Positions 32,506-63,036 of a stretch of 63,155 nucleotides of DNA are shown here, piece after piece. Position numbers and translations under genes: made by a program. The stretch spans positions 1-63,155 of the forward strand of contig SUSZ01000009.1 in the NCBI GenBank assembly GCA_015063165.1, given 5' to 3'. The first letter of the stretch is position 1; the number at the start of each line of letters is the position of its first letter. This DNA comes from Thermoplasmata archaeon (lineage in GTDB: Archaea > Thermoplasmatota > Thermoplasmata > Methanomassiliicoccales > Methanomethylophilaceae). The notes below the pieces were generated by a model. It saw nothing but the letters and a program-made list of their open reading frames with translations, made no database searches and was not told the DNA's origin.

Positions 32506-32597
32506 TCGCTCCGCATGAGGGGAATCATTGCTGATCTTTTCGGAAACGGTCCCGTCTTAAGGGTAATCCCCTGGCCTCATATGGCGGAGATCGGATG

Positions 32598-32748: not shown

Positions 32749-32770
32749 GGATGGACGCCCGCCTCCGCGT

Positions 32771-33142: not shown

Positions 33143-33289
33143 GCTGCACGCGTCCGCCTGAAAGAGCCGGCATCGCACGAGAGGCAGGATACCCGGATCG
33201 CAACATATGCTGCCACTGGCCAGGCCCTCCCGGCAGATGGCATCATGTTCCAACACGATTATAAGGGAGTTTACAGCCCAATAAATAAT

Positions 33290-33422
33290 GCTTTCTGTAT
33301 CATCCAAATCTTTATACGCTCTGAGGAGCCTCCCATCATTGACGGCGAGGTCCGCATCCGGCGTCCATCCGGAACGGAGAGCAAGTCATCTTGGATACGG
33401 ACCGTGGCCGCGAGGTGAAGCT
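33290..33422 (+). promoter_or_regulatory. promoter region of surface-protein gene
   Basis: A/T-rich segments AATAAATAATG (around 33280) and ATCTTTATACGC (33309-33320) lie upstream, with the Shine-Dalgarno sequence GAGGTGA seven bases before ATG 33423. Confidence 0.4.
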
Positions 33423-34331: not shown

Positions 34332-34358
34332 AGATCATAGGAAAGATTAGGAGCAGAC

Positions 34359-37313: not shown

Positions 37314-37321
37314 GACCTCAA

Positions 37322-37340
37322 CGCCCGGTCTTTCCGGGCG
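37322..37340 (+). terminator. hairpin CGCCCGG/CCGGGCG
   Basis: Perfect 7-bp stem with a five-base loop, eight bases after the TAA of the BspA-like gene. Probable transcription terminator; a second hairpin with the reversed motif follows at 37362. Confidence 0.55.
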
Positions 37341-37361
37341 AAACCTATTCCAAACGTTTTC

Positions 37362-37378
37362 CCGCCCTTTCCGGGCGG
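37362..37378 (+). terminator. hairpin CCGCCC/GGGCGG
   Basis: A second short GC stem with loop TTTCC, just upstream of the giant gene. It uses nearly the same bases as the first hairpin, so the two could pair alternatively. Confidence 0.4.
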
Positions 37379-37404
37379 CTTCCGTTTCATTGGAGGACGA
37401 GACG

Positions 37405-40400
37405 TTGTTTAAAGGACTTCTTCCTGGAATCATCATGCTGCTGTCAGTGCTGGCTTTGTGCGTCGGAGCGTGCGGGCCGGGATGCGCAGGCGATTCGCCA
37501 GGGACCATCGTCACATCATGCGATCACGGGGCCATCGTCGACGCTGAGACGGGCAAAGAATACTACGGGGGCCCCTTCCAGGGCGGCCTCGTTCTGAGGT
37601 GCGTGCCGGATGCAGGGTTCGAGTTCGTCGGATGGTCCGTCGAGGGGACGGCCCAGATTACGCAGGACGGCGACACAATCGCAGTGTCGTCCGCGGAGGG
37701 GGCCGTCCGCATAACGGCGGAGTGCAGGAACTACTCCCCGTCTACGAGCCTCACCCCCGTCGTCGACGAGGACGACGTCCTGATGCCCGGGGAGGAGATG
37801 TTCATGAACTGGTCGTTCAAGAGCGCCGACCTCTATATGAGCGGCGGGACCTGGCTCGGCATGCCCAGCACGCCCCTCATCGTGGGCGACGTCGTCTACG
37901 TCCGCGCCGGGAGCTACCTCTATGCCCTGGACATCGACAGCGGGACCGTCCTCCACGCCGTCAAGTCCGAGGGCTTCGGCGTGGACTTCTACCACTACGT
38001 CAGCTACGGGAACGGGGTCATCTTCGACACCACCGGCTACAAGGCCTACGACCTCGAGCTGAACTACCTCTACGACATCCCCAAGAACCTCCGGTTCGTG
38101 ACCTATCACGACGGCTACTTCTACGGCTGCACCACTTCATCCGTACACAACAACGTCACCTACTACTCCATGTTCAAGACCTCCCTCGACGTCGACTCCG
38201 ACCTGGTCAACGGTGTCAAGACGAACCTCTTCGAGGGGAGGGACGAGTTCCCTCTCTTCTCCCAGTGGGGGCAGTACTCCGCGTTCATAATCAGGGACGG
38301 CTGGGCGTTCTTCCTGGAAGGAGACAGGGAAGCCAGGACCGTCGACGGATACAGGGGCATCACCGCCTTCAACATCGAGACCGAGGAGCATGTCACCCTC
38401 GACCTCACGCCGCTCATCGGCGGCATGTCCTGGGACGACGGCTGGCTCACCTACGACGACGGATACCTCTACCTCACAGCGTACATCGCCGGTCTGTTCA
38501 ACGGCGTCGGCCCGGGGTTCGAGAACAGGAACGACGCGGTCTGCTGGGTGAAGTTCGACTTCGAGAAGGGCTGCTTCGAGGCACCCCATTGCAAGGACAT
38601 AGAGTCCCCCTCACACGAGAAGTTCAAAGGTATAACCTCAGGATTCGTCGTCAAGGACGGCCACGGCTACATCAACGCCAGGGCCCTGGGGACGGAGACG
38701 CAGGACGGAGTCGACAACACCGGGACCCGCATGATATCCTTCGACATCGGCGAGGATGGGGAGCCCATCCCCGTGGACTCCGCCGCCAGCCTCATGAGCC
38801 ACGGCGGGATAGTCCTCAACACGGCCTTCGGCGACGTCAGGTACGTCTACCTCATCCCCTACAACGCCAAGGAGCAGGGCGTATACATATTCACGGACCG
38901 TCTGGCGGGCGGGAAGTGGACCCTCGACGAGGAGCCCTACCGCGCGATGAGCGACCCCGCCAGGCAGACGTTCTGCTCGCAGGGGGTCCGCATCGGCCCC
39001 GACGCGCAGTTCGTCTACTACGTGGACAGCGGCTACCTGGACTGCTACATCCCGGTCGACCGCTTCAGGCTGACCGCCATCATGGTGGAGGACGACAGCG
39101 CCACTGCCCAGGTCGGCTACGGAGGCAACGCGAAGAAGATCCTCTCCGAGATGTATCCGGGATCGTTCATTTCCGGGAACAGGATGATCATAGACGGAAA
39201 GACGTACACATTCCTGGGCCTGAACGAAGTGACCATGGTCTGGGAGAAGATAGCGGATATAGAGAAGAGCACCTACAGCGGAAAGACGCGCTCCACCAAG
39301 GCGATAACCGAGGCGTACTACCGCTACGTCATGCTGGTCGCCGACGGCTCCGAAGCCCACACCGACAACAGGTCCAACACGGGCGACATGGGCTGGTACG
39401 TCCTCTCAGGAGGGGAGTACCAGAAGCGCGCGGTGTACCTCTCTGAGACCTGGGACGAGGTCGTCGGGAAGGGCGCCGTGTACTCCACGACCAAGCCGTC
39501 CGCGCCCGCCGGCGTATTCACGATCTCCTTCGACTCCAGCGGCGGAAGCGCCGTTCCCAGCATCACCCAGGCCGCAGGCTCCCCCGTCAGCGTCCCCTCC
39601 CCTCCGACCAGGGAGGGGTACTCGTTCTCCGGATGGGATCCCTCCTTGCCGTCTTCCATGCCCGCCCAGGACATGACCATTGTCGCTAGATGGGCTGTCA
39701 ACAGCTACACCATAACGTTCGATCCGAACGGCGGAAACGCCGTCCCGAGCATCACCCAGGCCTACGGCACCGCCGTCAAGGCGCCTGCGGACCCCGTGAG
39801 GGAAGGCTACTTCTTCTCCGGCTGGAGCCCCGCGCTCCCGTCCGCGATGCCCGCCAAGGACCTCTCGGTCAGGGCGACGTGGACCAAGCTGGCCCCCCGC
39901 TTGTCAACGATCTCGTTCGACTCCAACGGCGGAAGCGCCGTTCCCAGCATCACGCAGGAGGCCGGCTCCCCGGTCAAAGCGCCCGCGGACCCAGTAAGGG
40001 AGGGCCATTCCTTCTCCGGATGGAGCCCCGCGCTCCCGGCGACCATGCCGGACCGCGACGTCACGGTCACGGCTGTGTGGACCGTAAACAGCTACACGAT
40101 CTCGTTCGACTCCAGCGGCGGCAGCGCCGTCCCGAGCATCACCCAGGCCTACGGCACCGCCGTCAGGGCCCCCTCCGACCCGATCAGGGAAGGGCATACG
40201 TTTGCGGGCTGGGAGCCTTCCCTCCCGGCGACGATGCTATCGCACGACATGACCCTGGTGGCCAGATGGTCCGTCAACATGTACACCATCACGTTCGACT
40301 CCGCAGGTGGCAGCCTGGTGCCGAGCATGAAACTGGACTACGGCTCGCCCGTTGCAGCCCCTTCCAGCCCGGTGAGGGAAGGGTACGCGTTCTCCGGCTG

Positions 40401-43400
40401 GAGCCCCTCCCTCCCGGCGACCATGCCCGCCATGGACCTTTTGTTAAAGGCCTCATGGGAAAAGCTGGCCCCGAAGGTCTTCACCATCACTTTCGACTCC
40501 GCTGGCGGCAGCCCTGTCCAGAGCATCTCGCTTGAGGTCGGCGCCACCATCAGGGCCCCCTCGGAGCCTGTCAGGACAGGGTACACGTTCAGTGGCTGGG
40601 AACCCTCGCTCCCGCAGACCATGCCGGACCGCGATGTCGAAGTCGTCGCCAAGTGGGACGTCAACAGTTACACCATCACGTTCGACTCAGCGGGCGGCAG
40701 CCAGGTGCCGAGCATGAAACTGGACTACGGCTCGCCCGTTGCAGCCCCTTCCAGCCCGGTGAGGGAAGGGTACGTGTTCTCCGGCTGGAGCCCCTCCCTT
40801 CCGGCGACGATGCCTGCTGAGGACCTGTTGCTGACCGCTAGATGGGCCGCAAAGAGCTTCACGATAGCGTTCGACTCCGCAGGAGGGACAGCTGTACCGA
40901 GCATCACCCAGATGTACGGTTCTCCTGTCAGCGCCCCTCCGGATCCGACCAGGGAAGGGCACACGTTCGCGGGCTGGGAGCCCGCCATCCCGGCGACCAT
41001 GCCGGACCATGATGTCACGGTCACGGCTGGATGGTCCGTCAACAACTACACGATATCGTTCGATTCCAAGGGCGGCAGCCCCGTATCCGGGATCACCCAG
41101 GCCTACGGCACCCCGATCAGGGCGCCCTCCAATCCAACCAGGGAAGGTTATGCGTTCGCAGGCTGGGAGCCGTCCCTCCCCGCGACCATGCTCGCAGGGG
41201 ACCTGAGGCTAGCGGCGAGATGGGAGGCCAGAATCTATACCGTCACCTTCGACCCCGCCGGAGGGAGCGTCGTACCGAGCATCGTCCATGCCTACGGCAG
41301 CGCCGTCGAGGCGCCCTCGGACCCCGTCAGGGAAGGCTACTCCTTCGCGGGCTGGGAGCCCTCCGTCCCATCCACCATGCCCGCCAATGACGTAGTGGTC
41401 GTCGCCCAGTGGACGGCCAACAGCTACACGATATCCTTCGATTCGAACGGGGGGAGCCCCGTCCCTAGCATCACACAGAAATACGGGGCTGCTGTCGAGG
41501 CGCCCTCGGACCCCGTCAGGGAAGGCCATTCCTTCGCGGGCTGGGAGCCCTCGGTCCCCTCCACCATGCCCGCCGGCGACCTCAGGGTCGTGGCCCGGTG
41601 GACCGTCAACACGTACACCATATCCTTCGACTCCGCGGGAGGCAGCGAGGTCAAGAGCATCACCCAGGCCTACGGGACGGACGTCAAGGCGCCGGCCGAC
41701 CCCGCCAGGGAGGGATACGCCTTCGCGGGCTGGGAGCCCTCGGTCCCCTCCACCATGCCCGCCGGCGACCTTCGCGTTAAAGCCGTATGGGCCAAGCTCG
41801 CCCCGCGCATGTCCACCATATCGTTCGATCCGAACGGCGGAAGCTCCGTCGGGAGCATCATCCAGGAGGCTGGTACGACCGTATCCGTGCCTGCGGAGCC
41901 CACCAGGGCCGGACACACGTTCGCGGGCTGGGAGCCCTCCGTCCCCTCCACCATGCCCGCCGGCGACCTCAGGGTCGTGGCCAGATGGACCGTCAACACG
42001 TACACCATATCCTTCGACTCAGACGGAGGGAGCGAGGTCAAGAGCATCACCCAGGCCTACGGGACGGACGTCAAGGCGCCCTCGGACCCCGTCAGGGAGG
42101 GCCATTCCTTCGCGGGCTGGGAGCCGTCCCTCCCTGCGACCATGCCCGCCGGCGACATCTCGGTGATCGCCCGGTGGGCCGTCAACACGTACACCATATC
42201 CTTCGACTCCGCGGGCGGCAGCCATGTGTCCGGGATCGCCCAGGCATACGGCACCCCCATCAGGGCCCCCTCCGACCCGACCAGGGAGGGTTACACGTTC
42301 GCCGGATGGGAGCCTTCCGTCCCCTCCACCATGCCCGCCGGCAACCTCAGTGTCGTGGCCCTGTGGACCGTCAACACGTACACGATAACGTTCGACTCGG
42401 ACGGAGGCAGCGAAGTGCATAGCATCGCTCTGGACTTCGGAGCCGAAGTCGTGGCTCCCGCCGACCCAGTGAAGGACGGATACATCTTCATCAGGTGGGT
42501 CCCGGAGCTGCCTACGACCATGCCCGCCCGGGACGTGGAGGTCAAGGCCCTCTGGACCAAGCTGGCGCCGCGCATGTCCACCATTTCGTTCGACTCCACC
42601 GGCGGAAGCCCCGTGTCCGGCATCACCCAGGAGGCCGGGAGCCCCGTCGCCGCCCCACCGGACCCGGTCAAGGAGGGGCATACCTTCGCCGGATGGGACC
42701 CTGCCGTCCCTGCAGAGATGCCCGCCGAGAACGTCATCCTGAAGGCGAAGTGGAGTGTCAATTCCTACACGATAACGTTCGATCCGGACGGAGGCAGCGA
42801 GGTCCCGAGCATCATTCTGGACTACGGCGCCGACGTCGGGGCCCCCTCCGACCCAGTGAAGGATGGTTACAGGTTCCGCGGATGGGAGCCGTCCCTTCCC
42901 CGGACCATGCCCGCGATGGACGTCACAGCGGTCGCCGTTTGGGAGGCCGAATCTTACACGATCTCCTTCGACACGGACGGAGGCAGCGTGGTCCCGAGCA
43001 TCATCCTTGAATTCGGCGCCTCGGTCGAAGCGCCTGCGGATCCCCAGAAGGACGGGTACGCCTTCGTCGGATGGGCCCCGGAGCTGCCGTCGACCATGCC
43101 CGCCCGGGACGTGGGGGTCAAGGCCGTCTGGACCAAGCTCGCCCCGCGCATGTCCACCATATCGTTCGACCCCGCCGGCGGAAGCACTGTCCCAAGCATC
43201 ACACAGGAGGCCGGAAGCCCCGTAGTTGCCCCGCCGGAGCCTACTAGGGTCGGGTACGCGTTCGCCGGATGGTACCCTGCCGTCCCTGCGGAGATGCCCG
43301 CCGAGAACATCTCGTTGAAGGCCACATGGAGGGCCAACTCCTACACGATCCACTTCGACACGGGCGGAGGCAGCGCGGTCCCCAGCATCACGCAGGAGTA

Positions 43401-45351
43401 CGGCACCAGGGTCGTTCCCCCGTCGGACCCGACGAGGGACGGCTACGAGTTCGCCGGATGGGAGCCCTCCCTCCCGGCGACCATGCCAGCCCGGGACCTG
43501 ACCCTGGCCGCCGCATGGATTAGGACGGCCCCCAGCATACACACCATCACCTTCGACCCGGCCGGAGGGAGCGCGGTCCCCAGCATCACGAAAGAGACCG
43601 GCTCAGCTGTGGCAGCCCCGCCCTCTCCTGTAAAGACTGGCCACACGTTCGCCGGATGGGACCCGGCGCTCCCCTCCGTCATGCCGGACAGGGATGTGAC
43701 GCTCGTCGCCAGATGGGCCGTCAACAGCTACACCATAACGTTCAACCCAGCTGGAGGGAGCGCTGTCCCCAGCATAACCCAGGATTACGGCAGCGCCGTC
43801 AAGGCCCCCTCGGAGCCTGTCAGGACAGGGTACACGTTCAGTGGCTGGGAACCCTCGCTCCCGGCGACCATGCCCGCGAGTAACATGACCCTCGTCGCCA
43901 GGTGGGACGAATCCGCGAGCCTCGACGGCCTCCCAGGGAAGATCACGGTGGCCTACACCTCCATCGAGACGGTCGCGCTCCCGTCCGGCGCTTCATTCCG
44001 GATCGCGGACGCGTCAGTGGCCTCCGCCAGCATGGACGGGGCCTTCCTGGCCGTCACCGGCCTGGTGGAGGGATCCACCGACATCACGGTGTCATTGGGA
44101 GGCTCCGAGCGCACCGTCGCGGTCGAGGTGGTGCCTCTCACGTTCGTCAACGACAAGGGCAACACGGAGCGCCATTCGTGCAGGTCGTCCCCGGACGGCA
44201 GCGGAGGGTCCGTGGTCACCATCGAGGACACCGAGACCGGGGCCTCCGAGTACCTGTCGACCAGAACCGTCATGGAGAAGGACGCCAGCGGCAGGACGGT
44301 GCGCGAGACCGTATCCGCCATGGAGATGATCGACAGGGACTTCGAGAACCTCGACGAAAAGGGAGAGCCCATGTCCAGGAACTCGGAGTCGTTCACGGAG
44401 AGGGACGCCGAGGGAAACATAGTCGCGAGCACCGCGAAGATGCGCCTCTATTCGTCGTCCAGGTCCGGCGACGGGGTCATCTCGTCCACGGAGATAGTGT
44501 CCGAGTCCGACGCCCTCTCCGGCAGGAACGTGGTCACCACCACGTCCCTGACGTCCTACGCGTCCTTCGAGGAGAGCAGGGTCAAGGTGGACACCTACGT
44601 GGGCGACAGGCTCGAGTCCTCGGAGGCGTCGATGTCGGTGGAGCCCAAGGTTGACGGCCTCTCGATAGGCATCGACGGGAAGTCCGCCACCGTGGCCCTC
44701 ACCGGGGACGAGCCTATGGACATCGGGCAGCTGGTGGGGGTCCTCGCCGACATCGACGGGGTCCTCGACGTCACGGTCGAGAGCCATGTCCCGATATCCG
44801 GCGACGCCTTCAAGCACATCGCGGACGCCGGCGGGACGCTGGTGCTGCATTCCGGAGGCTCCTGGATATCCGTCGGCGAGGAGGCCCTGAGGTCCATGGC
44901 CGGCGGCGGCGAGCTGGAGTTCTCCGTCTCCGAGGCCAAGGACCTGAAGGCGAGGCAGAAGGAGGCGGCCGAAGGCGCCAAGGCGTTCACGATGGCGCTC
45001 TCCTACGGCGGGAGCGAGGTCCGCGACCTCGGCAGGTTCTCCGCCGCCATAGCCTGCGACGTGGACGTCCAGGAGGGGAAGGAGCTGAAGGTCTGGAGGA
45101 TCGACGGCTACGGTAAGAAGACCTACGCCGAGGGAGTCTCCTACTCGGACGGGCTGGTGTCCTTCGAGTCCGACCACCTGCCCCTGTTCGCGGTGGGGTA
45201 CGGGACCGAGGAGGAGCCCGAGCCCCAGGGGCCGTCCTCCGGCGGAGGGGACCTCACCGTCCCGCTGGCCGTCGGCGCCGCGATAGCGATAGCCGCCGTC
45301 CTGGCGGCCCTTATGCTGATCAGGTCCAGGAGGGGCCGATCGGGAGGATGA
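37405..45351 (+). CDS. giant InlB-repeat surface protein
   Basis: 2,648 residues from TTG 37405, chosen because TTGGAGG (37390-37396) is then correctly spaced and a signal peptide starts directly (MFKGLLPGIIMLLSVLALCV). Residues 40-115 hold a divergent InlB-like segment; about 130-690 is a PQQ/propeller-like region (PLIVGDVVYVRAGSYLYALD). Then come 23 tandem InlB B-repeats of about 63 residues (705-2168), a C-terminal segment (about 2175-2610) and a membrane helix with tail RSRRGRSGG. C-terminally anchored, extracellular. First gene of the corrinoid-type operon; three bases separate it from the BtuF-like gene. Confidence 0.85.
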   Translation: MFKGLLPGIIMLLSVLALCVGACGPGCAGDSPGTIVTSCDHGAIVDAETGKEYYGGPFQGGLVLRCVPDAGFEFVGWSVEGTAQITQDGDTIAVSSAEGAVRITAECRNYSPSTSLTPVVDEDDVLMPGEEMFMNWSFKSADLYMSGGTWLGMPSTPLIVGDVVYVRAGSYLYALDIDSGTVLHAVKSEGFGVDFYHYVSYGNGVIFDTTGYKAYDLELNYLYDIPKNLRFVTYHDGYFYGCTTSSVHNNVTYYSMFKTSLDVDSDLVNGVKTNLFEGRDEFPLFSQWGQYSAFIIRDGWAFFLEGDREARTVDGYRGITAFNIETEEHVTLDLTPLIGGMSWDDGWLTYDDGYLYLTAYIAGLFNGVGPGFENRNDAVCWVKFDFEKGCFEAPHCKDIESPSHEKFKGITSGFVVKDGHGYINARALGTETQDGVDNTGTRMISFDIGEDGEPIPVDSAASLMSHGGIVLNTAFGDVRYVYLIPYNAKEQGVYIFTDRLAGGKWTLDEEPYRAMSDPARQTFCSQGVRIGPDAQFVYYVDSGYLDCYIPVDRFRLTAIMVEDDSATAQVGYGGNAKKILSEMYPGSFISGNRMIIDGKTYTFLGLNEVTMVWEKIADIEKSTYSGKTRSTKAITEAYYRYVMLVADGSEAHTDNRSNTGDMGWYVLSGGEYQKRAVYLSETWDEVVGKGAVYSTTKPSAPAGVFTISFDSSGGSAVPSITQAAGSPVSVPSPPTREGYSFSGWDPSLPSSMPAQDMTIVARWAVNSYTITFDPNGGNAVPSITQAYGTAVKAPADPVREGYFFSGWSPALPSAMPAKDLSVRATWTKLAPRLSTISFDSNGGSAVPSITQEAGSPVKAPADPVREGHSFSGWSPALPATMPDRDVTVTAVWTVNSYTISFDSSGGSAVPSITQAYGTAVRAPSDPIREGHTFAGWEPSLPATMLSHDMTLVARWSVNMYTITFDSAGGSLVPSMKLDYGSPVAAPSSPVREGYAFSGWSPSLPATMPAMDLLLKASWEKLAPKVFTITFDSAGGSPVQSISLEVGATIRAPSEPVRTGYTFSGWEPSLPQTMPDRDVEVVAKWDVNSYTITFDSAGGSQVPSMKLDYGSPVAAPSSPVREGYVFSGWSPSLPATMPAEDLLLTARWAAKSFTIAFDSAGGTAVPSITQMYGSPVSAPPDPTREGHTFAGWEPAIPATMPDHDVTVTAGWSVNNYTISFDSKGGSPVSGITQAYGTPIRAPSNPTREGYAFAGWEPSLPATMLAGDLRLAARWEARIYTVTFDPAGGSVVPSIVHAYGSAVEAPSDPVREGYSFAGWEPSVPSTMPANDVVVVAQWTANSYTISFDSNGGSPVPSITQKYGAAVEAPSDPVREGHSFAGWEPSVPSTMPAGDLRVVARWTVNTYTISFDSAGGSEVKSITQAYGTDVKAPADPAREGYAFAGWEPSVPSTMPAGDLRVKAVWAKLAPRMSTISFDPNGGSSVGSIIQEAGTTVSVPAEPTRAGHTFAGWEPSVPSTMPAGDLRVVARWTVNTYTISFDSDGGSEVKSITQAYGTDVKAPSDPVREGHSFAGWEPSLPATMPAGDISVIARWAVNTYTISFDSAGGSHVSGIAQAYGTPIRAPSDPTREGYTFAGWEPSVPSTMPAGNLSVVALWTVNTYTITFDSDGGSEVHSIALDFGAEVVAPADPVKDGYIFIRWVPELPTTMPARDVEVKALWTKLAPRMSTISFDSTGGSPVSGITQEAGSPVAAPPDPVKEGHTFAGWDPAVPAEMPAENVILKAKWSVNSYTITFDPDGGSEVPSIILDYGADVGAPSDPVKDGYRFRGWEPSLPRTMPAMDVTAVAVWEAESYTISFDTDGGSVVPSIILEFGASVEAPADPQKDGYAFVGWAPELPSTMPARDVGVKAVWTKLAPRMSTISFDPAGGSTVPSITQEAGSPVVAPPEPTRVGYAFAGWYPAVPAEMPAENISLKATWRANSYTIHFDTGGGSAVPSITQEYGTRVVPPSDPTRDGYEFAGWEPSLPATMPARDLTLAAAWIRTAPSIHTITFDPAGGSAVPSITKETGSAVAAPPSPVKTGHTFAGWDPALPSVMPDRDVTLVARWAVNSYTITFNPAGGSAVPSITQDYGSAVKAPSEPVRTGYTFSGWEPSLPATMPASNMTLVARWDESASLDGLPGKITVAYTSIETVALPSGASFRIADASVASASMDGAFLAVTGLVEGSTDITVSLGGSERTVAVEVVPLTFVNDKGNTERHSCRSSPDGSGGSVVTIEDTETGASEYLSTRTVMEKDASGRTVRETVSAMEMIDRDFENLDEKGEPMSRNSESFTERDAEGNIVASTAKMRLYSSSRSGDGVISSTEIVSESDALSGRNVVTTTSLTSYASFEESRVKVDTYVGDRLESSEASMSVEPKVDGLSIGIDGKSATVALTGDEPMDIGQLVGVLADIDGVLDVTVESHVPISGDAFKHIADAGGTLVLHSGGSWISVGEEALRSMAGGGELEFSVSEAKDLKARQKEAAEGAKAFTMALSYGGSEVRDLGRFSAAIACDVDVQEGKELKVWRIDGYGKKTYAEGVSYSDGLVSFESDHLPLFAVGYGTEEEPEPQGPSSGGGDLTVPLAVGAAIAIAAVLAALMLIRSRRGRSGG
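39514..43908 (+). repeat. 23 tandem InlB B-repeats (about 190 bp units)
   Basis: Each unit encodes a pattern like TISFDSxGGSxVPSITQxYG..APxDPxREGYxFAGWEPSLPxTMPA. Unit borders alternate between short VNSYTI and longer KLAPRMSTI linkers. Several neighbouring units are nearly identical in DNA (around 41540-42200; also 40290-40450 versus 40670-40830), showing recent unit duplication or conversion. Confidence 0.9.
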
Positions 45352-45354
45352 GAC

Positions 45355-46773
45355 ATGCAAGCATCGACGATAAAGCTCCTGTCGGCCGCGGTCATAGCCG
45401 TGGTCGCGGTCGCGGCCGCCTCCGCGGTGGGTTTCACCGTGGACTCGACGGACGCGAGACAGGGCGTGATGATAGACTTCGCCTACTACGAAGTGGACTG
45501 GGTCGAGATGAGGTTCCCGGAGGGTATGACCGGCGACGGAGCCCTGGAGGCCGCCTGCTCGGAGAAGGGCTACGAGATAGTCAGGGACCCCGAGGGCTCG
45601 GTTTACTCCGTGGACGGGAGGACAAGGCTGCTGAACGTCGACTGGGGCATGTACGTCCTGGGGAGCGGCGGGGAGTGGGTGCAGGTCGAGGACCCGTCCA
45701 CCTACGTCGTCTCCGAGGACAGCATAGTCTCGTGGGCGCGCGCAGGGGCGGGCAGCGAGATGATGCCCGCGGTCGACCAGACCGGGTTCACCTACTACAG
45801 CTACGCGTCCGAGGGCAGGAACGCCCACGGCGAGCGCCTGAAGGTGGTCACCCTGGCCCCTTCGGTCACGGAGACCGTGTGCGCCGTAGGCGGCCTGGAC
45901 TACATAGTCGGAACCGACAGATACAGCGACTACCCCAACGCCCTCGTGGCGCGCCAGAACGACCGTACGATATCCCTGGTGGGCGGATATACGGACCCCA
46001 ACTACGAGAAGATAGTCGCGGTCAGCCCGGACATAGTCTTCCTGGACGGGGGCACCGGGGAGCACGTCGCGATGGCGGACAAGCTCCGCAAGTCCGGGGT
46101 GGGCTGCGTCGTCCTCTACGAGGCGGTGGACACCGACGACCTCCTGAAGAACCTGTGGATATGCTCGTCCGCCCTCGGCTTCCCCTGGGCGGGGAACGAG
46201 TACATCACGGACGTCGCCGAGGCGGTCGACAACATAAGCCGCATCGCGGACCTCCAGGGGAAGAAGGTGTTCGTCTCCCTCGGGGTGAGCGACACCCCGT
46301 ACACCGCGGGGTCCGGCACCTATGTGGACAGCATGCTGGAGTCCCTGGGCGCGAGGAACATCTTCGCGCAGGACTCGTCCTCGTGGTTCATGGCCTCCAA
46401 GGAGATGGTCTACGAGAGGCAGCCGGACATAATCGTGGTCATCTACGACACCGAGGAGATCACCTCCCAGAGGGAGTACCGCCTCCTCCTGTCCCATTTC
46501 AACGACCTGTGGAAGAAGACCCCCGCCTACAGGAACGGCGAGGTCTACGTCTTCTCCGGGGACGCCGCCAGCCTCCTCTCGAGGGCGGGTGCCAGGCTCC
46601 CGGAGGCGCTAGAGCTCCTGGCCAAGATAACGAGCCCGGAGCCCTTCATCATGGCCGACCCCACCGACGTGGTGGGCGTGAAGTACTACAACGACTCGTA
46701 TAACGACCCGGACAACGGGTACCTCCGCTACGTGAAGGCGCAGGGGCTGATGGAATGGCAAAGGGGATCCTGA
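45355..46773 (+). CDS. btuF: BtuF-like corrinoid/metal-chelate-binding protein with N-terminal DUF4430-like domain
   Basis: 472 residues. Signal peptide or anchor to about 30. Residues 35-130 resemble a transcobalamin-C-like (DUF4430) domain (VYSVDG...W-x-MYVL-x-SGGEWVQ). Residues 160-420 are a class III periplasmic-binding domain: VTLAPSVTETVCAVGGLDYI, then GTDRYSDYP, close to BtuF, and SPDIVFLDGG. Delivers substrate to the permease encoded two genes downstream. Siderophore binding is the alternative; the DUF4430-like neighbours and the YP motif favour corrinoid. Overlaps the next gene by 19 bases. Confidence 0.75.
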   Translation: MQASTIKLLSAAVIAVVAVAAASAVGFTVDSTDARQGVMIDFAYYEVDWVEMRFPEGMTGDGALEAACSEKGYEIVRDPEGSVYSVDGRTRLLNVDWGMYVLGSGGEWVQVEDPSTYVVSEDSIVSWARAGAGSEMMPAVDQTGFTYYSYASEGRNAHGERLKVVTLAPSVTETVCAVGGLDYIVGTDRYSDYPNALVARQNDRTISLVGGYTDPNYEKIVAVSPDIVFLDGGTGEHVAMADKLRKSGVGCVVLYEAVDTDDLLKNLWICSSALGFPWAGNEYITDVAEAVDNISRIADLQGKKVFVSLGVSDTPYTAGSGTYVDSMLESLGARNIFAQDSSSWFMASKEMVYERQPDIIVVIYDTEEITSQREYRLLLSHFNDLWKKTPAYRNGEVYVFSGDAASLLSRAGARLPEALELLAKITSPEPFIMADPTDVVGVKYYNDSYNDPDNGYLRYVKAQGLMEWQRGS

Positions 46774-48641
46774 TCCTGCTGGCCCTCCTCGCGGCCTCTG
46801 CGTCCCTCCTGACTGTGGCTGACGCCTCCTGTGCCGAGGGCCAGGACGCCCTGCTGATAGACTTCGGCAACGGCCATACTGAATGGTCGGACCTCCAGCG
46901 CGGGGGCACCATAGAGTCGGCGGTGTCCCTGTCCATCGGCGGCCGCGCCGCCTTCGCCGACTCCGATAGCGGGAGGAGCCTGGTCTCAGTGGACGGCGTC
47001 TCCGGGGTCGTCGTCGGGAAGGGCGCGGCCAGGCAGGCGTGCGGATGGCGCATATACGCATGGAACTCCGTGGAATGGGAGTTCCTCACCTCCGACGCCT
47101 CCGACAGGTACGCCGGAGGGCCGATAGCCCTGGGATACTACCCGAAGGACTCCGTGGTACCAGTGGCGAGCCCCGACTGCCGCGACGTCTGGACCTCGTT
47201 CCGCGGGAACTCCTCCTCGTCCGGTGTCAGCATGTCCGCCGGCCCGGAGCGCGTGGCGAGCCCCCTGGAGTGGTCCGTCACCTACGCCGGAGCCGTGGAC
47301 GCGTCCGTGCTCTACGCCGACGGCATGATCTACCACACAGTGGCGGGGAAGTACGGCGCCGTGGGCACCGACGGCCTGGCCAGGGTGTGCTGCCTCGACC
47401 CTGTCAACAGGGAGGTCCTCTGGTCCGTGACATACTCCAACTCGGGGAACACCGAGATAACGACCCCGGTGATCGTAGGGGGCCTGATAGTCGTCACCTC
47501 CGGGAACTGGCACGTCTACTGCCTGGACCGCTTCACCGGGGAGCCCGTCGCGGAGCTGGCCCCCTCGGGGGAGGACGGCGACATGTGCAGGGGATCCATG
47601 CTCTCAACCTACATACCCAGGAAGGGCGACGAGTCCGTCAGGAACGACAGGATACACCTAGAAGGGGGGATGACCAACGCCGTCTACGACTCCGGCGTGC
47701 TCTACTTCGGCACCTCCGACGGCATCCTGCGCTGCTTCTCGGTGGACCGCGAGGACGGGTTCAGGGAGATCTGGAACCATGTCCCGGCCTCCGACGTCAG
47801 GGGATGCTTCTACTACCATCCTCCCGTGGTGTGCGACCACGGCGGTGCGAAGCGCGTCCTCATCGGCAACTACGGCGGCGGTCTGGTCTGCGTGGACGGG
47901 CTGACGGGCTCCGGCCTGTGGTCCCAGAAGGTCACGGACGCGTCCGGGAAGGCCGTGGGCCAGGTCACGTCCATCACAGTATGCGAGGGCGGCAGGGCGC
48001 TGGTTTGCTACTCCGGGGGCGAGATGAGCTCCGCCGGCGGGGGGATCATGCTGATCGACGTGGAGGACGGCTCCGTCGTATGGAAGGAGGACGTCCGCTG
48101 CGGGAGGCCCGCCGTCTTCGGGGACAGGTTCTACTCGTACGTGTCCGCGCTCCCCGGCCAGACCGTCAAGGACTCCTCCACGGGAGCGGAGGTCCCCCTG
48201 GAGAGCGGGTACTGCTCCATGTGGGTCGACGACTGCAGCCTGCTCTGGCTCAGGCAGACCGACGCGCTCTCCATAGGGGGCGTGTCCTACTGCGGCGGCA
48301 GGGTGTACAGCATGGACTACTCGCCCGGCACCGAGGGGGCGAACGGCGGATGGGTCTGGTGCCTGGACGCAGACACCGGCTCGGTCGTCTGGAAGTGCCA
48401 GGTGTCCCCGTACAGCGGGAACTCGTACAGCATGTGCTCCCCGACGGTCGTGGACGGGAGGGTCCTGGTGGGGAACGACTACGGCGCTGTCTACGTCCTG
48501 TCGGAGAAGTCCGGGAGCGAGCGCTCCCAGAGCTCAGAGATCGACTACAGGTCCGAGGGGCTGGCGCACCCCTCGTGGATCGCATTCTTCGTGCTGGTGG
48601 CCGCGGTCATAGCCGTGTCCGTCCACGCGTACAGGCGCTGA
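46755..48641 (+). CDS. membrane-anchored PQQ-type beta-propeller with DUF4430-like domain
   Basis: 628 residues. Signal peptide to about 26, then an N-terminal domain of about 105 residues (TEWSDLQRGGTIESAVSLSI, SLVSVDG, CGWRIYAWNSVEWEF) with the W..YxW..xEW pattern seen in DUF4430 domains. Residues 150-590 contain propeller blades (e.g. GGLIVVTSGNWHVYCLDRFT and WVWCLDADTGSVVWK). C-terminal helix at about 606-624. Extracellular, anchored. In the operon it may hold or present corrinoid; no PQQ enzyme residues are evident. Confidence 0.75.
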   Translation: MAKGILILLALLAASASLLTVADASCAEGQDALLIDFGNGHTEWSDLQRGGTIESAVSLSIGGRAAFADSDSGRSLVSVDGVSGVVVGKGAARQACGWRIYAWNSVEWEFLTSDASDRYAGGPIALGYYPKDSVVPVASPDCRDVWTSFRGNSSSSGVSMSAGPERVASPLEWSVTYAGAVDASVLYADGMIYHTVAGKYGAVGTDGLARVCCLDPVNREVLWSVTYSNSGNTEITTPVIVGGLIVVTSGNWHVYCLDRFTGEPVAELAPSGEDGDMCRGSMLSTYIPRKGDESVRNDRIHLEGGMTNAVYDSGVLYFGTSDGILRCFSVDREDGFREIWNHVPASDVRGCFYYHPPVVCDHGGAKRVLIGNYGGGLVCVDGLTGSGLWSQKVTDASGKAVGQVTSITVCEGGRALVCYSGGEMSSAGGGIMLIDVEDGSVVWKEDVRCGRPAVFGDRFYSYVSALPGQTVKDSSTGAEVPLESGYCSMWVDDCSLLWLRQTDALSIGGVSYCGGRVYSMDYSPGTEGANGGWVWCLDADTGSVVWKCQVSPYSGNSYSMCSPTVVDGRVLVGNDYGAVYVLSEKSGSERSQSSEIDYRSEGLAHPSWIAFFVLVAAVIAVSVHAYRR

Positions 48642-48665
48642 ACGCATTTAGACGGAGAGATGACA

Positions 48666-49859
48666 ATGGCTGCGGAAGAAGCAGGCGGGCCGGAGGGCGG
48701 GGCGTCCCCGCCGGGCCCGGGGAAGGGCAGGAGGCTGAAGGGCCTCGTGTCCACGATGAAGAAGGGATACAGCGGCATGAGGGACGACATGTCCCCGGAG
48801 GACGACGACAGGAGCGAGATCTCCATCAAGCGCAGGAGGTTCGCCATAATAGTCCTCCTGGGGGCGTTCCTGTGCATCGCCATGTTCCTTGTCTCGATAT
48901 CGATAGCCTCCGGAGGCATAATACCGATAAGCGACGCAATATCGTCCCTGATATCGGCGATACAGAAGGGAGGTCAGGACCTCGACCTCACCGAGATGTA
49001 CATATTCCAGTCGCGCCTGCCGCGCACGATAGCGGCGATAGGGGTCGGCGCGGGCCTCGCCACTGCGGGGTGCATGTTCCAGGCGCTCATCAGGAACCCT
49101 CTGGTGGACCCGTACATCACCGGCGTGTCGTCCGGGGCAGGATGCACCGCGATAGCCGTCGTGGTCCTGGGGATATCCATATCCGCGCTGAGCGACTTCA
49201 GCAACTACATAATACCCGTCGCGGCCGTCCTCGGGGGCCTCCTGGCCTTCGGGATAACGCTGGCCGTGGCCGAGAGCGCCGGCGGGACGGCGACCAACTA
49301 CATCCTTTCCGGTACGATCGTCGGTTTCGCGTTCACCTCGGTCCAGACCATCTTCCTGTCGCTGGAGAAGGACAACCTCACCAACGTCATGTGGTGGCTC
49401 TACGGGAGCTTCGCCAACATAACCTGGGAGAACGCGTTCCTGGTGCTCATACCGGCGTTGGCCATATCGCTGATCGCGATGCTCTGGGCCAGGGAGTTCA
49501 ACCTCTTCATGACAGGGGAGGACCAGGCGAGGCAGTCCGGGCTGGAGGTCAGGAGGTTCAAGGCGGGCATGATGGTCGTCGCGTCGGTCCTGACCTCGGT
49601 CTGCGTCGCGTTCGTCGGGATAATCGGCTTCGTCGGGCTGGTGATACCGCACGCATGCCGCATGCTGATGGGCGGGGACCACCGCCTGATAATGCCCGCG
49701 TCGATAGTGCTGGGCGCGTGCCTTATGCTCTTCGCGGACCTGGCGGCCAGGGTGGCCATAGCCCCTCTGGAGATACCGGTCGGGGCCGTCACGGCGCTCA
49801 TCGGGACGCCGGTGTTCGCCTACATGCTCATAAGGAGGGGGCGCGACTATGACGGATGA
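48666..49859 (+). CDS. btuC: FecCD/BtuC-type ABC importer permease
   Basis: 397 residues. An acidic/basic cytoplasmic N-terminal extension of about 55 residues precedes about ten membrane helices. RLPRTIAAIGVGAGLATAGC and NPLVDPYITGVSSGAG match the conserved FecCD region, and GFVGLVIPHACRM the coupling-helix region. I prefer ATG 48666 over 48660 because GGAGAG then has normal spacing. Works with the ATPase whose gene overlaps its stop and with the BtuF-like protein. Confidence 0.88.
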   Translation: MAAEEAGGPEGGASPPGPGKGRRLKGLVSTMKKGYSGMRDDMSPEDDDRSEISIKRRRFAIIVLLGAFLCIAMFLVSISIASGGIIPISDAISSLISAIQKGGQDLDLTEMYIFQSRLPRTIAAIGVGAGLATAGCMFQALIRNPLVDPYITGVSSGAGCTAIAVVVLGISISALSDFSNYIIPVAAVLGGLLAFGITLAVAESAGGTATNYILSGTIVGFAFTSVQTIFLSLEKDNLTNVMWWLYGSFANITWENAFLVLIPALAISLIAMLWAREFNLFMTGEDQARQSGLEVRRFKAGMMVVASVLTSVCVAFVGIIGFVGLVIPHACRMLMGGDHRLIMPASIVLGACLMLFADLAARVAIAPLEIPVGAVTALIGTPVFAYMLIRRGRDYDG

Positions 49860-50637
49860 CGACGTATTGAGGGTGGAGGGCCTCGGCATAAGGTTCGGCG
49901 ACTTCGAGGCGCTGCACGACATAAGCTTCTCCCTGCCGAAGGGGCTGCTTGTAGGGCTGATCGGCCCCAACGGGTGCGGGAAGTCCACGATGATGAAGTG
50001 CATATCCAAGCTGCACACCGACTGGACGGGGAGGATCTCCGTCGCCGGCCAGGACATAGCCGGGTTCAGGGCCAAGGACGTCGCCAGGATGGTCGCGAAC
50101 GTCCCCGCAGAGCCCGGCCCGCTGTTCGGTACCACGGTCATGGAGCTGGTGATGCTCGGGAGGTACCCGTTCGTGAACAAGGTGTGGTGGGAGTCCAGGG
50201 AGGACGAAAGGCTGGTGCGCGAGGCCCTGCGGACGTTCGGGCTGGACCATCTCAGGCGCAAGGCGGTCGCCCTGTGCTCCTCCGGGGAGAAGCAGCGCGC
50301 GCTGATAGCGAAGGCGTACGTCCAGGACCCCAAGCTGATGCTCGTGGACGAGCCGACCTCCCACCTCGACATGAAGTACAAGCTGGAGGTCATGGAGTAC
50401 CTGCAGGGCATGTCGCGCAAGGACATGACCGTGCTTGTGGCCGAGCACGACATCTCGCTCATGGCCAGGTACTGCGACCTCTGCATAATCATGAAGGAGG
50501 GGAGGATAGTGACCATCGGGAATCCCAAGGAGGTCATAACCGAGGACCTCATCAGGGACGTCTACGAGGTGGACGCCCGCGTCGGGACGGACGTGGACGG
50601 GGAGATATACGTGCTCCCCAAGAAGTACATCCGGTGA
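49849..50637 (+). CDS. btuD: BtuD/FecE-type ABC importer ATPase
   Basis: 262 residues. Walker A GPNGCGKST near 39-47, signature CSSGEKQR (SSGE in place of SGGE) near 143, Walker B LMLVDEPTSHLD near 164-175, H-loop AEHD near 198. Energises the permease encoded upstream (11-base overlap). Complete for the family. Confidence 0.9.
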   Translation: MTDDDVLRVEGLGIRFGDFEALHDISFSLPKGLLVGLIGPNGCGKSTMMKCISKLHTDWTGRISVAGQDIAGFRAKDVARMVANVPAEPGPLFGTTVMELVMLGRYPFVNKVWWESREDERLVREALRTFGLDHLRRKAVALCSSGEKQRALIAKAYVQDPKLMLVDEPTSHLDMKYKLEVMEYLQGMSRKDMTVLVAEHDISLMARYCDLCIIMKEGRIVTIGNPKEVITEDLIRDVYEVDARVGTDVDGEIYVLPKKYIR

Positions 50638-50641
50638 TGCC

Positions 50642-53600
50642 ATGAGGCGCTTTCTCTTTCTCATCGCGATCGCGCTCGCCTTGGCCGCCGTGTGCGTGTC
50701 GGCGGACCAGTCGTCCGGAGCCGTGTGCGACGACGTGAGGGTGTTCGTCCTGGACGAGGACGGAGGCTACACCGAATCCACGGTGAGCGGGGTCCAGACC
50801 GTCAAGGGGGCCGTGGAGGCTGCCATGGAGGACCAGGGCCGCTCAATGGAGCTCAACATGACGAAGACCAGCATCCTGTCTGTGGACGGCCGCAGGGCCC
50901 CGGAGGACAGCTACTGGAGGGTGTTCCAGTGGCTTCCCGCGGGGACGTCGGGATGGGGGGTGCAGGCCTTCAACGCCTACTCCGACGGCAGGATGGCCAC
51001 CGGGACCTCCTACTGCGTCACCCTCTCCGAGATCCGCAACGTGAACGGCACGAACGTCTACTCGGTGCCGGACTTCGAGCCCGAATCCACGGGATACGTG
51101 TTCATAAGGTTCGCCAACGGCTTCTCCCCCGACAACGAGCACGTCCAGAAGGTCTTCACCCCGGAGATAAGGGAGAGCGGGTTCTGGATCGAGGGGAGGG
51201 GCTCCAACATGGGCGACGTCCTCAAGGACGCCATAGAGTCCAACTGGCCGGGCGAGATAGAGACGTTCACGGGGGACGCGGACGGCGTCGACGTGGCCGA
51301 ATGGATCTCCGTGCTGTTCGGCCTGGGCAACGAGAGGGCCGGCGACAACGCCTGGGCCTACTGGAGCCAGTGGAGCTGGGCGGACCACGAGTGGAGGTAC
51401 AACGACTGGACGCTGGGGTACTACGACCCGGCGGTCCACCCGTACCTTGAGTGCGTGTACCTGATATCCACCCCGGACCCCTACAGCGGCGAGTACGTCA
51501 TCGACAAGGGGGGCCCGGAGCCCGACCCCGACAGGGACGAGATCAGATGCATGAAGAACGTCCTGACGGCGGAGTTCAGGCTGGACGACGGCACCCTCTG
51601 GGACACCATGAAGGCGATGTACGGGGAGCGGGTGGACGCCAGCGGCGTCAGGGATCCTTCCGTCCAGGGCAAGGGCTTCGTCGGATGGGGCGACACCACC
51701 GCCCCCATGACCGAGGACGCGGTGTTCACCGCCTCGTTCGTCGACCTGGCCCCGGGCATGGTCCGCGTCAGGTACCTGGACGACAGGGGCGCGCTCATCG
51801 TGAACGAGTACCTGGCCCCTGGCGCCCCCGCCTCGTACGACGGCGTCCCCTCGAAGCCCAGCACGAAGGAGCAGGACTTCGTCTTCAGCGGATGGGACGC
51901 CGACCTGTCGTCCGTGACGGCCGACGTGACGGCCAGGCCCGTGTTCGAGGCCGTCCCCCGCAAGTACGAGGCGAGGTTCTTCGACTACGACAGGTCCCCC
52001 ATAGCGACGGCGGAGGCGGCCTACGGCTCCTATGCCCAGGCGCCTCCCGACCCGCATAGGGAGCCCACGGCGAGGTACCAGTACTCGTTCGCCGGGTGGA
52101 GCGCCACCCCCAACGGATACGTCCCGGTGGAGCTGGGCCCGGTGGAGGGGCCGATCTACGCCTATGCGTACTACGAGCCGGAGGCGAGGCCCTACACCCT
52201 GACATTCGTCGAGGGAGGCGCCGTGGTGCACGAATGCCAGGCGAGGTACGGCTCCTCCATAGGCGGGGCCCTGCCCGCGGAGGTCTTCGGCGGGTCCGCG
52301 CTGGCGAAGATGTACTCCGATCCCGGGTTGTCGAAGGACTGCCCCGTCAACCACATCGTCGTCGGGGACACCACGGTCTACGTGTCCAGGGTCGCCGGGT
52401 CTTACGAGGTCCCGCTGGACGCCGGCGGGGGCATGGCCGGGGACACCGTTTACGTGTCGTTCACCCAGGACCTGGCCCGGCAGGCCGCCGTGGAGGGCGG
52501 GGCCGTGGTCGTCTGCGACCTCTCCCAGTATCCAAACGGGACGGCAGCGTCCGTGGACAGGGAGTCGCTGTCCGCCCTCGCGTCCGCGCGCGGAGCGGGA
52601 TCCGAGGCGGTCATGATCGTGCCCCGCGGGTCCATCTCCATGCCCCTCTCGTCCATGCTGGAAGTCGTGGGGGACGGCGATTCGCTGCTGTTCTCGGTCC
52701 AGAACGGGCCGCTGAACGTGAAGATATCCACCGCCCTGAAGAAGGTGAACTACAGCGGGTTCTACCGCCTGAACCTCAGGGTGGACGGCGCACCGGTGAC
52801 CGACCTGGAGCCCCTCGGGGCGTCCGCCGCCGCCTCCCTCCTCCTGGAGCTGGACGAGGGGATGCACGCCGACGTCTGGAACATATCCCCCAACGGCGCC
52901 GTGACGCACCTGGAGCCCTCCTACGACGGGCGCTTCGCGACGTTCCGCACCAGCCTCATGCAGTTCTACGCGGTGGGGACCACGGATACCGCCTCCGTCC
53001 GTCAGACGGTCGTATGCCCCTACGGGGAGTGCGAGTACTCCGTAGAGGGCTCCGGGACAAGGGCCCTGTCGACCCTCGCGTCCATGTCATTGGACAACAT
53101 GGGCGGGACCCTGTTCGTGCCCTCCTGCTTCGGGGGAGGGACGCTCTCCAGGATAGAGGCGGGAGCCCTCAACGGCGTCGTCGACGCGCCCGCCGTCGTG
53201 GTGCCGGTGACGGTGGACAGCTTCTCCTGGGTCTCGTGGTCGAACGCGGGAATACGCGACGTGTACTTCCTGGGGGACGCCCCCGTGTTCGACGGGGCGC
53301 CGCCTGAGGGCCTGGCCGTCCACCATCCGGAAGGGGACGGATGGGACGTCGGGGAGTCCGACCTCGAGTTCCACACCTACAACGGTTCCTACCGCAAGGA
53401 CGTGTTCTCGTTCGTCTACTACGTGGTCGGCGACTCCGCCGTGGTGCACAGGTACCTGGGCGGCCCGTACGTCCAGATCCCCGAATCGGTCTCCGTGGGT
53501 GGAGCCGCGTATCCGGTCGCCTACATAGGGGACTCGGCCTTCATGGACTCCCAGGACCGCAGGGTCAGGGAGAGGCAGATGCTTGTGAACGAGGCCCCCT

Positions 53601-54418
53601 GCATGCTGGAGACGGTGGAGCTGGGCCCCCACGTCCGCGGCATACTGACCGGCGCCTTCGAGGGGTCCACCATCTCCAGCCTGTACTCCGCCGGCTCCGT
53701 CGCCCACGTGTGGGACAGGGCGTTCCGCGGATGTCATTCGCTGTCGAACGTCTCCTTCTCCGACGGCCTCGTCTTCGTCGGCGAGGAGGCCTTCGAGTCC
53801 TGCGACGGCAGGGCGTTCACCCGCTTCGACGCGCCGGCGACCCTCAGGGAGATGGGCAGGGGGGCGTTCTACGGATGCTCCAGCCTGTCGACCGTCACGC
53901 TGGGCGAGGGGCTGGGGGCCGTGCCCGAGGAGTGCTTCGGCTACTGCGTCGGACTGACGGACATGGAGCTCCCGCAGTCCGTGGCGTCGGTCGGGGACAG
54001 GGCGTTCTACGGATGCTCCGGCCTCCAGTACGTGGACCTGAAGGGCGTCTCGGAGGTCGGGAAGGACGCGTTCTACTCGCCGTACGGGGCCTCCGCCATG
54101 GAGTTCGCCGTCTTCGGGGAGAGCCTCAGGTCGCTCGGGCCCGGGGCGTTCGGAAACTGCTCTCGCATCTCCGAGCTGGAGGTCCACTGCGAGCTCTTCC
54201 CGTCCTTCGAGGGGGCCTTCACGGACGTGGACGTCGACGCCATTTCAGTCTACGCCTCGGACGGCGTGATCGGCTCGTGGTCGGGCTACGGCGCCGAGCC
54301 GATAGACGAGCCGGAGGTCAAGAAGGACGACTCCCTGCTCCTCTCCGTGGAGGCGGGGATGATCGTCTTCTTCGCCGCCCTGGGCGCGGCGGCGTTCTAC
54401 AGGAAGTCTAGGGCGTGA
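50642..54418 (+). CDS. BspA/InlB-like surface protein with two DUF4430-like domains
   Basis: 1,258 residues. Signal peptide to about 27. Residues 30-130 form a DUF4430-like domain (ILSVDGRRAPEDSYWRVFQW); residues 145-275 form a second (AWAYWSQWSWADHEWRYNDW). Three or four diverged InlB-like segments follow (GKGFVGWGDTTAPMTEDAVF, DFVFSGWDADL), then a ZU5/Ig-like region and BspA-type LRRs from about 980 (SLSNVSFSDGLVFVGEEAFE). C-terminal anchor helix at about 1232-1252 and tail RKSRA. Follows the ATPase by four bases. Likely outer capture component of the same uptake system. Confidence 0.8.
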   Translation: MRRFLFLIAIALALAAVCVSADQSSGAVCDDVRVFVLDEDGGYTESTVSGVQTVKGAVEAAMEDQGRSMELNMTKTSILSVDGRRAPEDSYWRVFQWLPAGTSGWGVQAFNAYSDGRMATGTSYCVTLSEIRNVNGTNVYSVPDFEPESTGYVFIRFANGFSPDNEHVQKVFTPEIRESGFWIEGRGSNMGDVLKDAIESNWPGEIETFTGDADGVDVAEWISVLFGLGNERAGDNAWAYWSQWSWADHEWRYNDWTLGYYDPAVHPYLECVYLISTPDPYSGEYVIDKGGPEPDPDRDEIRCMKNVLTAEFRLDDGTLWDTMKAMYGERVDASGVRDPSVQGKGFVGWGDTTAPMTEDAVFTASFVDLAPGMVRVRYLDDRGALIVNEYLAPGAPASYDGVPSKPSTKEQDFVFSGWDADLSSVTADVTARPVFEAVPRKYEARFFDYDRSPIATAEAAYGSYAQAPPDPHREPTARYQYSFAGWSATPNGYVPVELGPVEGPIYAYAYYEPEARPYTLTFVEGGAVVHECQARYGSSIGGALPAEVFGGSALAKMYSDPGLSKDCPVNHIVVGDTTVYVSRVAGSYEVPLDAGGGMAGDTVYVSFTQDLARQAAVEGGAVVVCDLSQYPNGTAASVDRESLSALASARGAGSEAVMIVPRGSISMPLSSMLEVVGDGDSLLFSVQNGPLNVKISTALKKVNYSGFYRLNLRVDGAPVTDLEPLGASAAASLLLELDEGMHADVWNISPNGAVTHLEPSYDGRFATFRTSLMQFYAVGTTDTASVRQTVVCPYGECEYSVEGSGTRALSTLASMSLDNMGGTLFVPSCFGGGTLSRIEAGALNGVVDAPAVVVPVTVDSFSWVSWSNAGIRDVYFLGDAPVFDGAPPEGLAVHHPEGDGWDVGESDLEFHTYNGSYRKDVFSFVYYVVGDSAVVHRYLGGPYVQIPESVSVGGAAYPVAYIGDSAFMDSQDRRVRERQMLVNEAPCMLETVELGPHVRGILTGAFEGSTISSLYSAGSVAHVWDRAFRGCHSLSNVSFSDGLVFVGEEAFESCDGRAFTRFDAPATLREMGRGAFYGCSSLSTVTLGEGLGAVPEECFGYCVGLTDMELPQSVASVGDRAFYGCSGLQYVDLKGVSEVGKDAFYSPYGASAMEFAVFGESLRSLGPGAFGNCSRISELEVHCELFPSFEGAFTDVDVDAISVYASDGVIGSWSGYGAEPIDEPEVKKDDSLLLSVEAGMIVFFAALGAAAFYRKSRA

Positions 54419-63020: not shown

Positions 63021-63036
63021 TTTGATGGTCAGTCGA

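Follow-up and report, generated by a model that had tools for sequence, protein, structure and literature searches.

SLBB domains and their link to vitamin B12 were described in 2007, as were an SLBB protein of Clostridium fused to a propeller and SLBB operons that include CbiO/CbiQ (PMC1796856). In Bacteroides, corrinoids bind the propeller face of BtuG (PMC10404256), a seven-bladed surface protein on an outer-membrane TonB transporter, BtuB, encoded beside it (PMC6143338, PMC10404256). For the order Methanomassiliicoccales, a 2024 paper noted the abundance of BtuC and, in strain LGM-RCC1, the position of BtuFCD beside adhesin-like genes; its authors suggest specialised B12 capture, and surface proteins catching B12 next to BtuFCD are thus, for this order, an idea already in print (PMC10804542). 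The locus considered here is a six-gene operon at positions 37405-54418 of the window, i.e., the whole 63,155-nucleotide stretch analysed, which is contig 12 of a 2.28-Mb Methanomassiliicoccales genome. It encodes a FecCD/BtuCD-type importer together with surface proteins, and is probably a membrane-anchored operon for the capture and import of corrinoids (cobamides).

All six open reading frames (ORFs) lie on the forward strand, spaced in order by 3, -19, 18, -11, and 4 bp. Their features are listed below (lengths in amino acids, aa).

37405-45351, +: giant InlB-repeat surface protein, 2648 aa (PF09479, 23 stretches); TTG start behind GGAGG
about 39505-43854, +: InlB repeats of the giant protein (PF09479)
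within 37405-45351, +: secretion signal, C-terminal membrane anchor, and propeller-like N-terminal part of the giant protein (by eye)
45355-46773, +: SLBB plus BtuF-like substrate-binding protein, P0002 (Peripla_BP_2, E 8.6e-31)
45457-45804, +: SLBB domain of the binding protein (profile comparison, predicted fold)
45844-46554, +: Peripla_BP_2 domain of the binding protein (Pfam)
46755-48641, +: SLBB plus PQQ/BamB-type beta-propeller protein, P0003, 628 aa (PQQ_2, E 1.1e-20)
about 46833-47204, +: SLBB domain of the propeller protein (hhalign)
within 46755-48641, +: C-terminal membrane anchor of the propeller protein (by eye)
48660-49859, +: FecCD/BtuC-type permease, P0004 (FecCD, E 2e-85)
49849-50637, +: BtuD/FecE-type ATPase (ABC_tran, E 5.6e-28)
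50642-54418, +: last protein, P0006, a leucine-rich-repeat (LRR) surface protein, 1258 aa (LRR_5, E 2.9e-38)
about 50720-51091 (copy 1) and 51086-51487 (copy 2), +: two SLBB-like domains of the last protein (hhalign)
about 53432-54241, +: BspA-type LRR region of the last protein, following a middle region (LRR_5)
within 50642-54418, +: C-terminal membrane anchor of the last protein (by eye)

An earlier note on this DNA had read the locus as one operon coupling a BtuFCD-type importer to three huge surface proteins. The operon and the importer held up, and the Peripla_BP_2, FecCD, and ABC_tran set expected of a BtuFCD corrinoid importer was present; "huge" does not suit all three surface proteins, which measure 2648, 628, and 1258 aa. 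Five distinct relatives of the N-terminal part of the giant protein (eight ORFs listed, three contigs duplicated) were 1153-1169 aa long as against 2648 aa in the window; the long repeat array therefore seems to be lineage-specific. Pyrrolysine readthrough of the in-frame stop between P0003 and P0004 was also considered and was rejected, as the codon is TGA, an ordinary stop.

The binding protein, permease, and ATPase belong to the same families as E. coli BtuFCD, but here they score below the equivalog cut-offs, the binding protein carries an SLBB domain, and an SLBB-propeller is added, in most core relatives (defined below) as a fusion with the permease. With the CbiO/CbiQ-type operons the locus shares SLBB proteins encoded with importers, as do sister families of the host's family, and the one Clostridium fusion likewise involves a propeller; those operons have importers of the energy-coupling factor (ECF) type, whereas the importer in the window is of the FecCD/BtuCD type and an SLBB domain sits on its binding protein (PMC1796856). 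If the window propeller binds corrinoid, it would resemble BtuG as a surface beta-propeller serving the importer encoded beside it; its sequence, however, is PQQ/BamB-type, and its partner is a cytoplasmic-membrane permease. By phmmer the propeller protein matched BamB (E 1.5e-5) and a quinohemoprotein, with no BtuG-named entry at E ≤ 0.01. The C-terminal beta domain of transcobalamin, haptocorrin, and intrinsic factor, which belongs to the transcobalamin-like clade of the SLBB superfamily (DUF4430 in Pfam), is alike in profile and in the fold of the one modelled copy, with two extra strands behind the helix, but in the window its partners are a type III substrate-binding protein and a propeller, and no toroid (alpha/alpha) domain was found by Pfam in the eight window proteins scanned. 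The LGM-RCC1 case concerns the same order and the same kind of neighbourhood; there the evidence is adjacency only, and the terms "propeller," "DUF4430," and "SLBB" are absent from the main text (PMC10804542). A publication with an SLBB-BtuF or SLBB-propeller-BtuC fusion was not found in open-access text.

Transcobalamin-C-like domains in the operon proteins

The earlier note had placed four DUF4430-like, transcobalamin-C-like segments at the N-termini of the binding protein and the propeller protein and twice in the last protein. All four were confirmed at these positions. They were missed by Pfam: neither the eight window proteins scanned nor the whole host genome contained a DUF4430 (PF14478) match at E ≤ 1, and none of the 108 genomes matching PF14478 came from this family. 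This silence was not counted as a refutation, because the Pfam model fails on these domains though they are related. A profile of the N-terminal domain of the binding protein alone matched DUF4430 proteins of other archaea at three of the 30 DUF4430 loci examined (E 1.4e-6, 7.8e-6, and 5e-3).

In profile-profile comparison by hhalign with 28 archaeal DUF4430 domains, the binding protein reached 96%, the propeller protein 83%, copy 1 of the last protein 65%, and copy 2 58%. Against the binding-protein SLBB profile the propeller protein reached 98%, copy 1 97%, and copy 2 94.6%, and it is these last two matches that tie in the copies of the last protein. Altogether, the four SLBB sets matched each other at 94-98% with zero members or segments in common. 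As controls, two pieces of the binding-protein lobe gave at most 1% with DUF4430 and at most 3.2% with the SLBB sets, and 20 column-permuted DUF4430 sets gave at most 4.3%; the two control pieces, from one lobe, matched each other at 31%. In a separate profile comparison, the binding-protein set matched 26 DUF4430 domains (set A3) at 95.8% (E 6.6e-9). Set A2 comprised 58 of 59 domain references plus the window, and set A4 comprised 56 of 57 plus the window. Searched against the PDB, the archaeal DUF4430 profile matched solely transcobalamins, intrinsic factor, and RUMGNA_00854 at E ≤ 0.2; the SLBB profile found nothing relevant among PDB sequences, and BLASTP of one domain pair gave no match.

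The binding-protein SLBB copy, the one folded, was modelled with AlphaFold2 at a mean predicted local distance difference test (pLDDT) score of 80, with the best blocks at about 94-97. Haptocorrin, transcobalamin, and intrinsic-factor beta domains took ranks 1-14 among its structural matches (Z 11.0 to 9.7, 92-98 residues), led by haptocorrin with Z 11.0 and a root-mean-square deviation of 2.4 over 92 residues. After these B12 carriers came RUMGNA_00854 (Z 8.4), and the best unrelated fold scored 6.7. The first 11 Foldseek rows were the same B12 carriers at E 0.002-0.012, with no row reaching E 0.001. The model contains strands at residues 8-12 and 18-22, a helix at 31-42, and strands at 46-48, 54-57, 69-73, 79-82, and 95-99, i.e., a beta-grasp fold plus two extra strands behind the helix. 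In our own reading, strands 46-48 and 54-57 of the model would be the insert described in 2007 (PMC1796856). The assignment to the transcobalamin C-terminal domain is upheld by predicted fold for the binding-protein copy and by profiles for the other three. At another locus (L101:10001-12622), one 874-aa ORF contained two SLBB domains about 420 residues apart, as if two SLBB-binding proteins had been fused in tandem.

Core and expanded relatives

A P0002-like protein (E ≤ 1e-5) was found in 87 of the 102 genomes of the host's family, in some by the binding-protein lobe only. Across the order, the SLBB profile matched in 104 of 147 genomes; a count of the rows assigns 81 of these to the family (out of 102 genomes) and 23 to the rest of the order (out of 45). 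Relatives were divided at 38% identity to P0002 into a core and an expanded (window-type) form. Among the loci examined, those with at least 3.3 kb downstream were used for architecture counts, giving 79 distinct loci (48 core, 31 expanded). The SLBB-propeller was fused to the permease in 43 core loci, split from it in one, and missing in four; in the expanded form propeller and permease were split in 28 loci and fused in three. In total, the permease was fused behind the SLBB-propeller in 46 of the 79 loci, and in 75 the genes of the SLBB-propeller and the SLBB-binding protein were neighbours. L032, whose operon is closely related to that of the window, encodes propeller and permease as one 1059-aa ORF. 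Because of this fusion in relatives, the propeller is taken to serve the channel.

Among 122 permeases placed on a tree, a clade of 86 with support 1.0 took in 54 of 56 core and 29 of 30 expanded sequences together with three others. The permeases of L198 and L138, which are linked to CbiZ or CbiB, branched first inside this clade (support 0.79 and 0.66).

In the sister families, five loci (L221, L222, L223, L227, and L228) carried an SLBB-propeller gene followed by a stand-alone DUF4430 gene and then an ATP-binding cassette (ABC) ATPase gene. Three of these loci, L221, L222, and L227, have a Pfam-confirmed CbiQ (E 1.3e-23 to 7.2e-26), and L222 also contains a double ECF ATPase and an S component; L223 and L228 were assigned as importer loci by the ATPase match alone. 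The SLBB-propeller thus goes with two unrelated importers, the ECF type in the sister families and the FecCD type here.

The host genome has a second operon copy on its contig 32 (L035), with a binding protein 71% identical to that of the window. There the pair of SLBB-like domains that begins the last protein is found on a separate 581-aa ORF ahead of the binding protein, which points to shuffling of modules between operon copies. At least 19 FecCD permeases were matched in the host genome (19 scored of 33 first-look candidates), an unusual expansion for 2.28 Mb that several relatives share.

Substrate of the operon

Corrinoid proteins are central to methyl-reducing methanogenesis. Core operons are linked to genes of corrinoid salvage: in L194 the core operon is directly followed by an aminotransferase, CbiB (E 3.6e-78), CbiZ (E 4.2e-49), CobS (E 7.5e-37), and a CobY-like nucleotidyltransferase, while L053 has CbiB and CbiZ as neighbours and L199 an aminotransferase and CbiB. 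The core operon lay within 10 kb of cbiZ in 18 of the 63 genomes with both, spread over five genera, as against about 1.7% per genome by chance with kinship ignored. This count covered main CbiZ rows, without lower partial matches, and 112 listed places matching P0002, with fragments and rows mainly in the binding lobe excluded; the genomes are not independent. Since the core form is linked to CbiZ, CbiB, and CobS, corrinoid salvage is the direct hypothesis, and import of corrinoids by the core systems is very likely.

Three genomes (G005, G006, and G007) had no CbiD hit and no CbiZ hit and keep two to three B12-binding proteins each. All of their FecCD matches (2, 1, and 1, respectively) sit in the operon of the SLBB-binding protein, which is the only FecCD system detected in them. 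The argument is suggestive only, because G006 and G007 are 79% complete (both have FeoB), G005 (96% complete) had no FeoB hit, so that iron uptake by its one FecCD system is conceivable, and the congener G004 differs, with CbiD, CbiZ, 11 FecCD matches, and no full SLBB-binding protein.

For the window operon, the corrinoid role named in the earlier note is less direct than for its core relatives. Because the window type was never near cbiZ (0 of 38 places in 28 genomes within 10 kb, although short contigs may hide linkage in both groups), we infer its substrate from shared permease descent and domains. Besides this lack of linkage and the reservations about G005-G007, whose operon is also without a propeller, several results weigh against corrinoid import. 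The NCBIfam equivalog cut-offs were missed by the binding protein (BtuF, 74 of 234 bits), the permease (BtuC, 210 of 334), and the ATPase (corrinoid ATPase, 199 of 537); the best-scoring names were PGF-CTERM binding protein, F420-0 permease, and FecE, with FecE, F420-0, and corrinoid ATPase at the top for the ATPase, each below cut-off. The S component of L222 best matched the riboflavin S family (E 8.7e-14), though with 28 of 99 bits it was far below the cut-off of the NCBIfam riboflavin model. No cobalamin riboswitch was found in the window at the Rfam gathering score, and no Rfam match at E ≤ 1 within 32300-37800; the upstream search proposed in the earlier note thus came back negative, which in an archaeon is not decisive.

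The binding protein itself does not separate the candidates. Its whole model had a pLDDT of 93.3 and a predicted template modelling score (pTM) of 0.90, the latter suggesting a fixed arrangement of SLBB domain and BtuF lobe, yet B12 binders fit it no better than heme or siderophore binders do, and iron and heme binders rank first. The siderophore specificity that the earlier note held would refute it could be neither found nor dismissed in this way, and reading the substrate from this fold was rejected as uninformative.

The host's own supply also matters. The earlier note's statement that these methanogens need corrinoids is weakened, since the host genome carries CbiD and can probably make corrin. 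It also has another FecCD system beside a CbiZ, and with CbiD, the many FecCD permeases, and that system, the host could import corrinoids without this operon. Near that CbiZ on host contig 58, a dockerin type I protein (L191:12821-14293) directly precedes a FecCD permease and ATPase; it is perhaps the binding protein of another corrinoid importer.

The expanded copies could have drifted to another ligand bound by SLBB, such as a different tetrapyrrole, a corrinoid breakdown product, or another metabolite, leaving the core form alone to move corrinoids. This would account for the missing cbiZ linkage, and it fits with the core copy also present in 21 of the 28 genomes with an expanded copy, with the very high FecCD numbers in many of these genomes, with the riboflavin-like S component beside an SLBB-propeller, and with the 2007 suggestion that a distinct metabolite might be what SLBB proteins scavenge in archaea, since those archaea often make B12 (PMC1796856). 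Against such drift, the expanded form keeps the same set of SLBB domains, propeller, and permease within one permease clade, and in seven genomes, the host included, the places counted comprise an expanded but no core copy. We consider it unlikely, if the most serious of the alternatives.

FecCD importers commonly carry iron compounds, and an iron or heme importer with adhesins would also suit the fold of the binding protein and the missing FeoB hit in G005 with its single FecCD system. The LRR proteins matched the HupY/LrrG model, far below its cut-off; HupY is an LRR adhesin involved in heme use in Streptococcus pyogenes (PMC6593403). The transcobalamin-like domains on three operon proteins (with the fold modelled for one), the salvage genes beside the core form, and the FeoB of G006 and G007 speak against iron or heme and make it improbable. 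Still harder to sustain is an adhesin-like cluster that merely lies beside a transporter and uses SLBB-like domains as structural spacers. Adhesion in the order is known to involve InlB and LRR repeat proteins (PMC7883539), but the tight, overlapping gene order, the SLBB domain on the binding protein itself, and the SLBB-propeller/permease fusion (43 of 48 core and 3 of 31 expanded loci) leave this reading with very little probability.

Under corrinoid capture and import, the SLBB domains on the binding protein, the permease-associated propeller, and, twice, the LRR surface protein would catch corrinoids outside the cell. A corrinoid may then be closed in between the SLBB domain and the BtuF lobe, and the SLBB domains together with this lobe would pass it to the BtuCD-type channel. 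At the cell surface, the apparatus might be held or projected by the giant InlB-repeat protein and the LRR proteins. The scheme is conditional as to whether the expanded, paralogous operon transports corrinoids, whether SLBB contacts the ligand, in which order hand-over proceeds, and what the repeats do. A more general proposal is tentative and rather doubtful: the SLBB-propeller would be a corrinoid receptor serving unrelated importers (ECF in the sister families; BtuFCD type here, where it has become part of the permease), the SLBB domain and BtuF lobe would close on the corrinoid from two sides like the two domains of transcobalamin, and the InlB and LRR proteins of the expanded form would carry more SLBB domains outward, towards cobamides from neighbours or from host carriers. 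If corrinoid capture is correct, gut methanogens would have a B12-capture apparatus built from a domain that human transcobalamin and intrinsic factor also use, which bears on the role of SLBB proteins in B12-making archaea, a question raised in 2007 (PMC1796856).

Upstream surface genes and minor features

Three further features precede the operon.

33423-34331, +: small surface protein; start set by eye at 33423, within an ORF that is open from 33288
34359-37313, +: BspA-type LRR surface protein (LRR_5, E 5e-133)
37362-37378, +: terminator-like GC-rich hairpin between the LRR gene and the operon (terminator scan, weak)

Both surface genes have homologues in the same position beside the operon in L031 and L032. 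The small protein carries a domain resembling copy 2 of the last protein, and searches from the two converged on 16 common segments; by hhalign this domain gave 0.6% against DUF4430 and 7% against the binding-protein SLBB. It is a possible candidate for a fifth SLBB-like module, and its gene may be a separate transcription unit. The upstream LRR gene and the operon are separated by 91 bp with GC-rich hairpins. The scanned stretch held four terminator-like sites as against 3.3 expected by chance, so that the promoter and terminator scan was about at chance level. Near the contig end, an Rfam group II intron match was found at 63032-63108 on the reverse strand (55.7 bits, cut-off 40).

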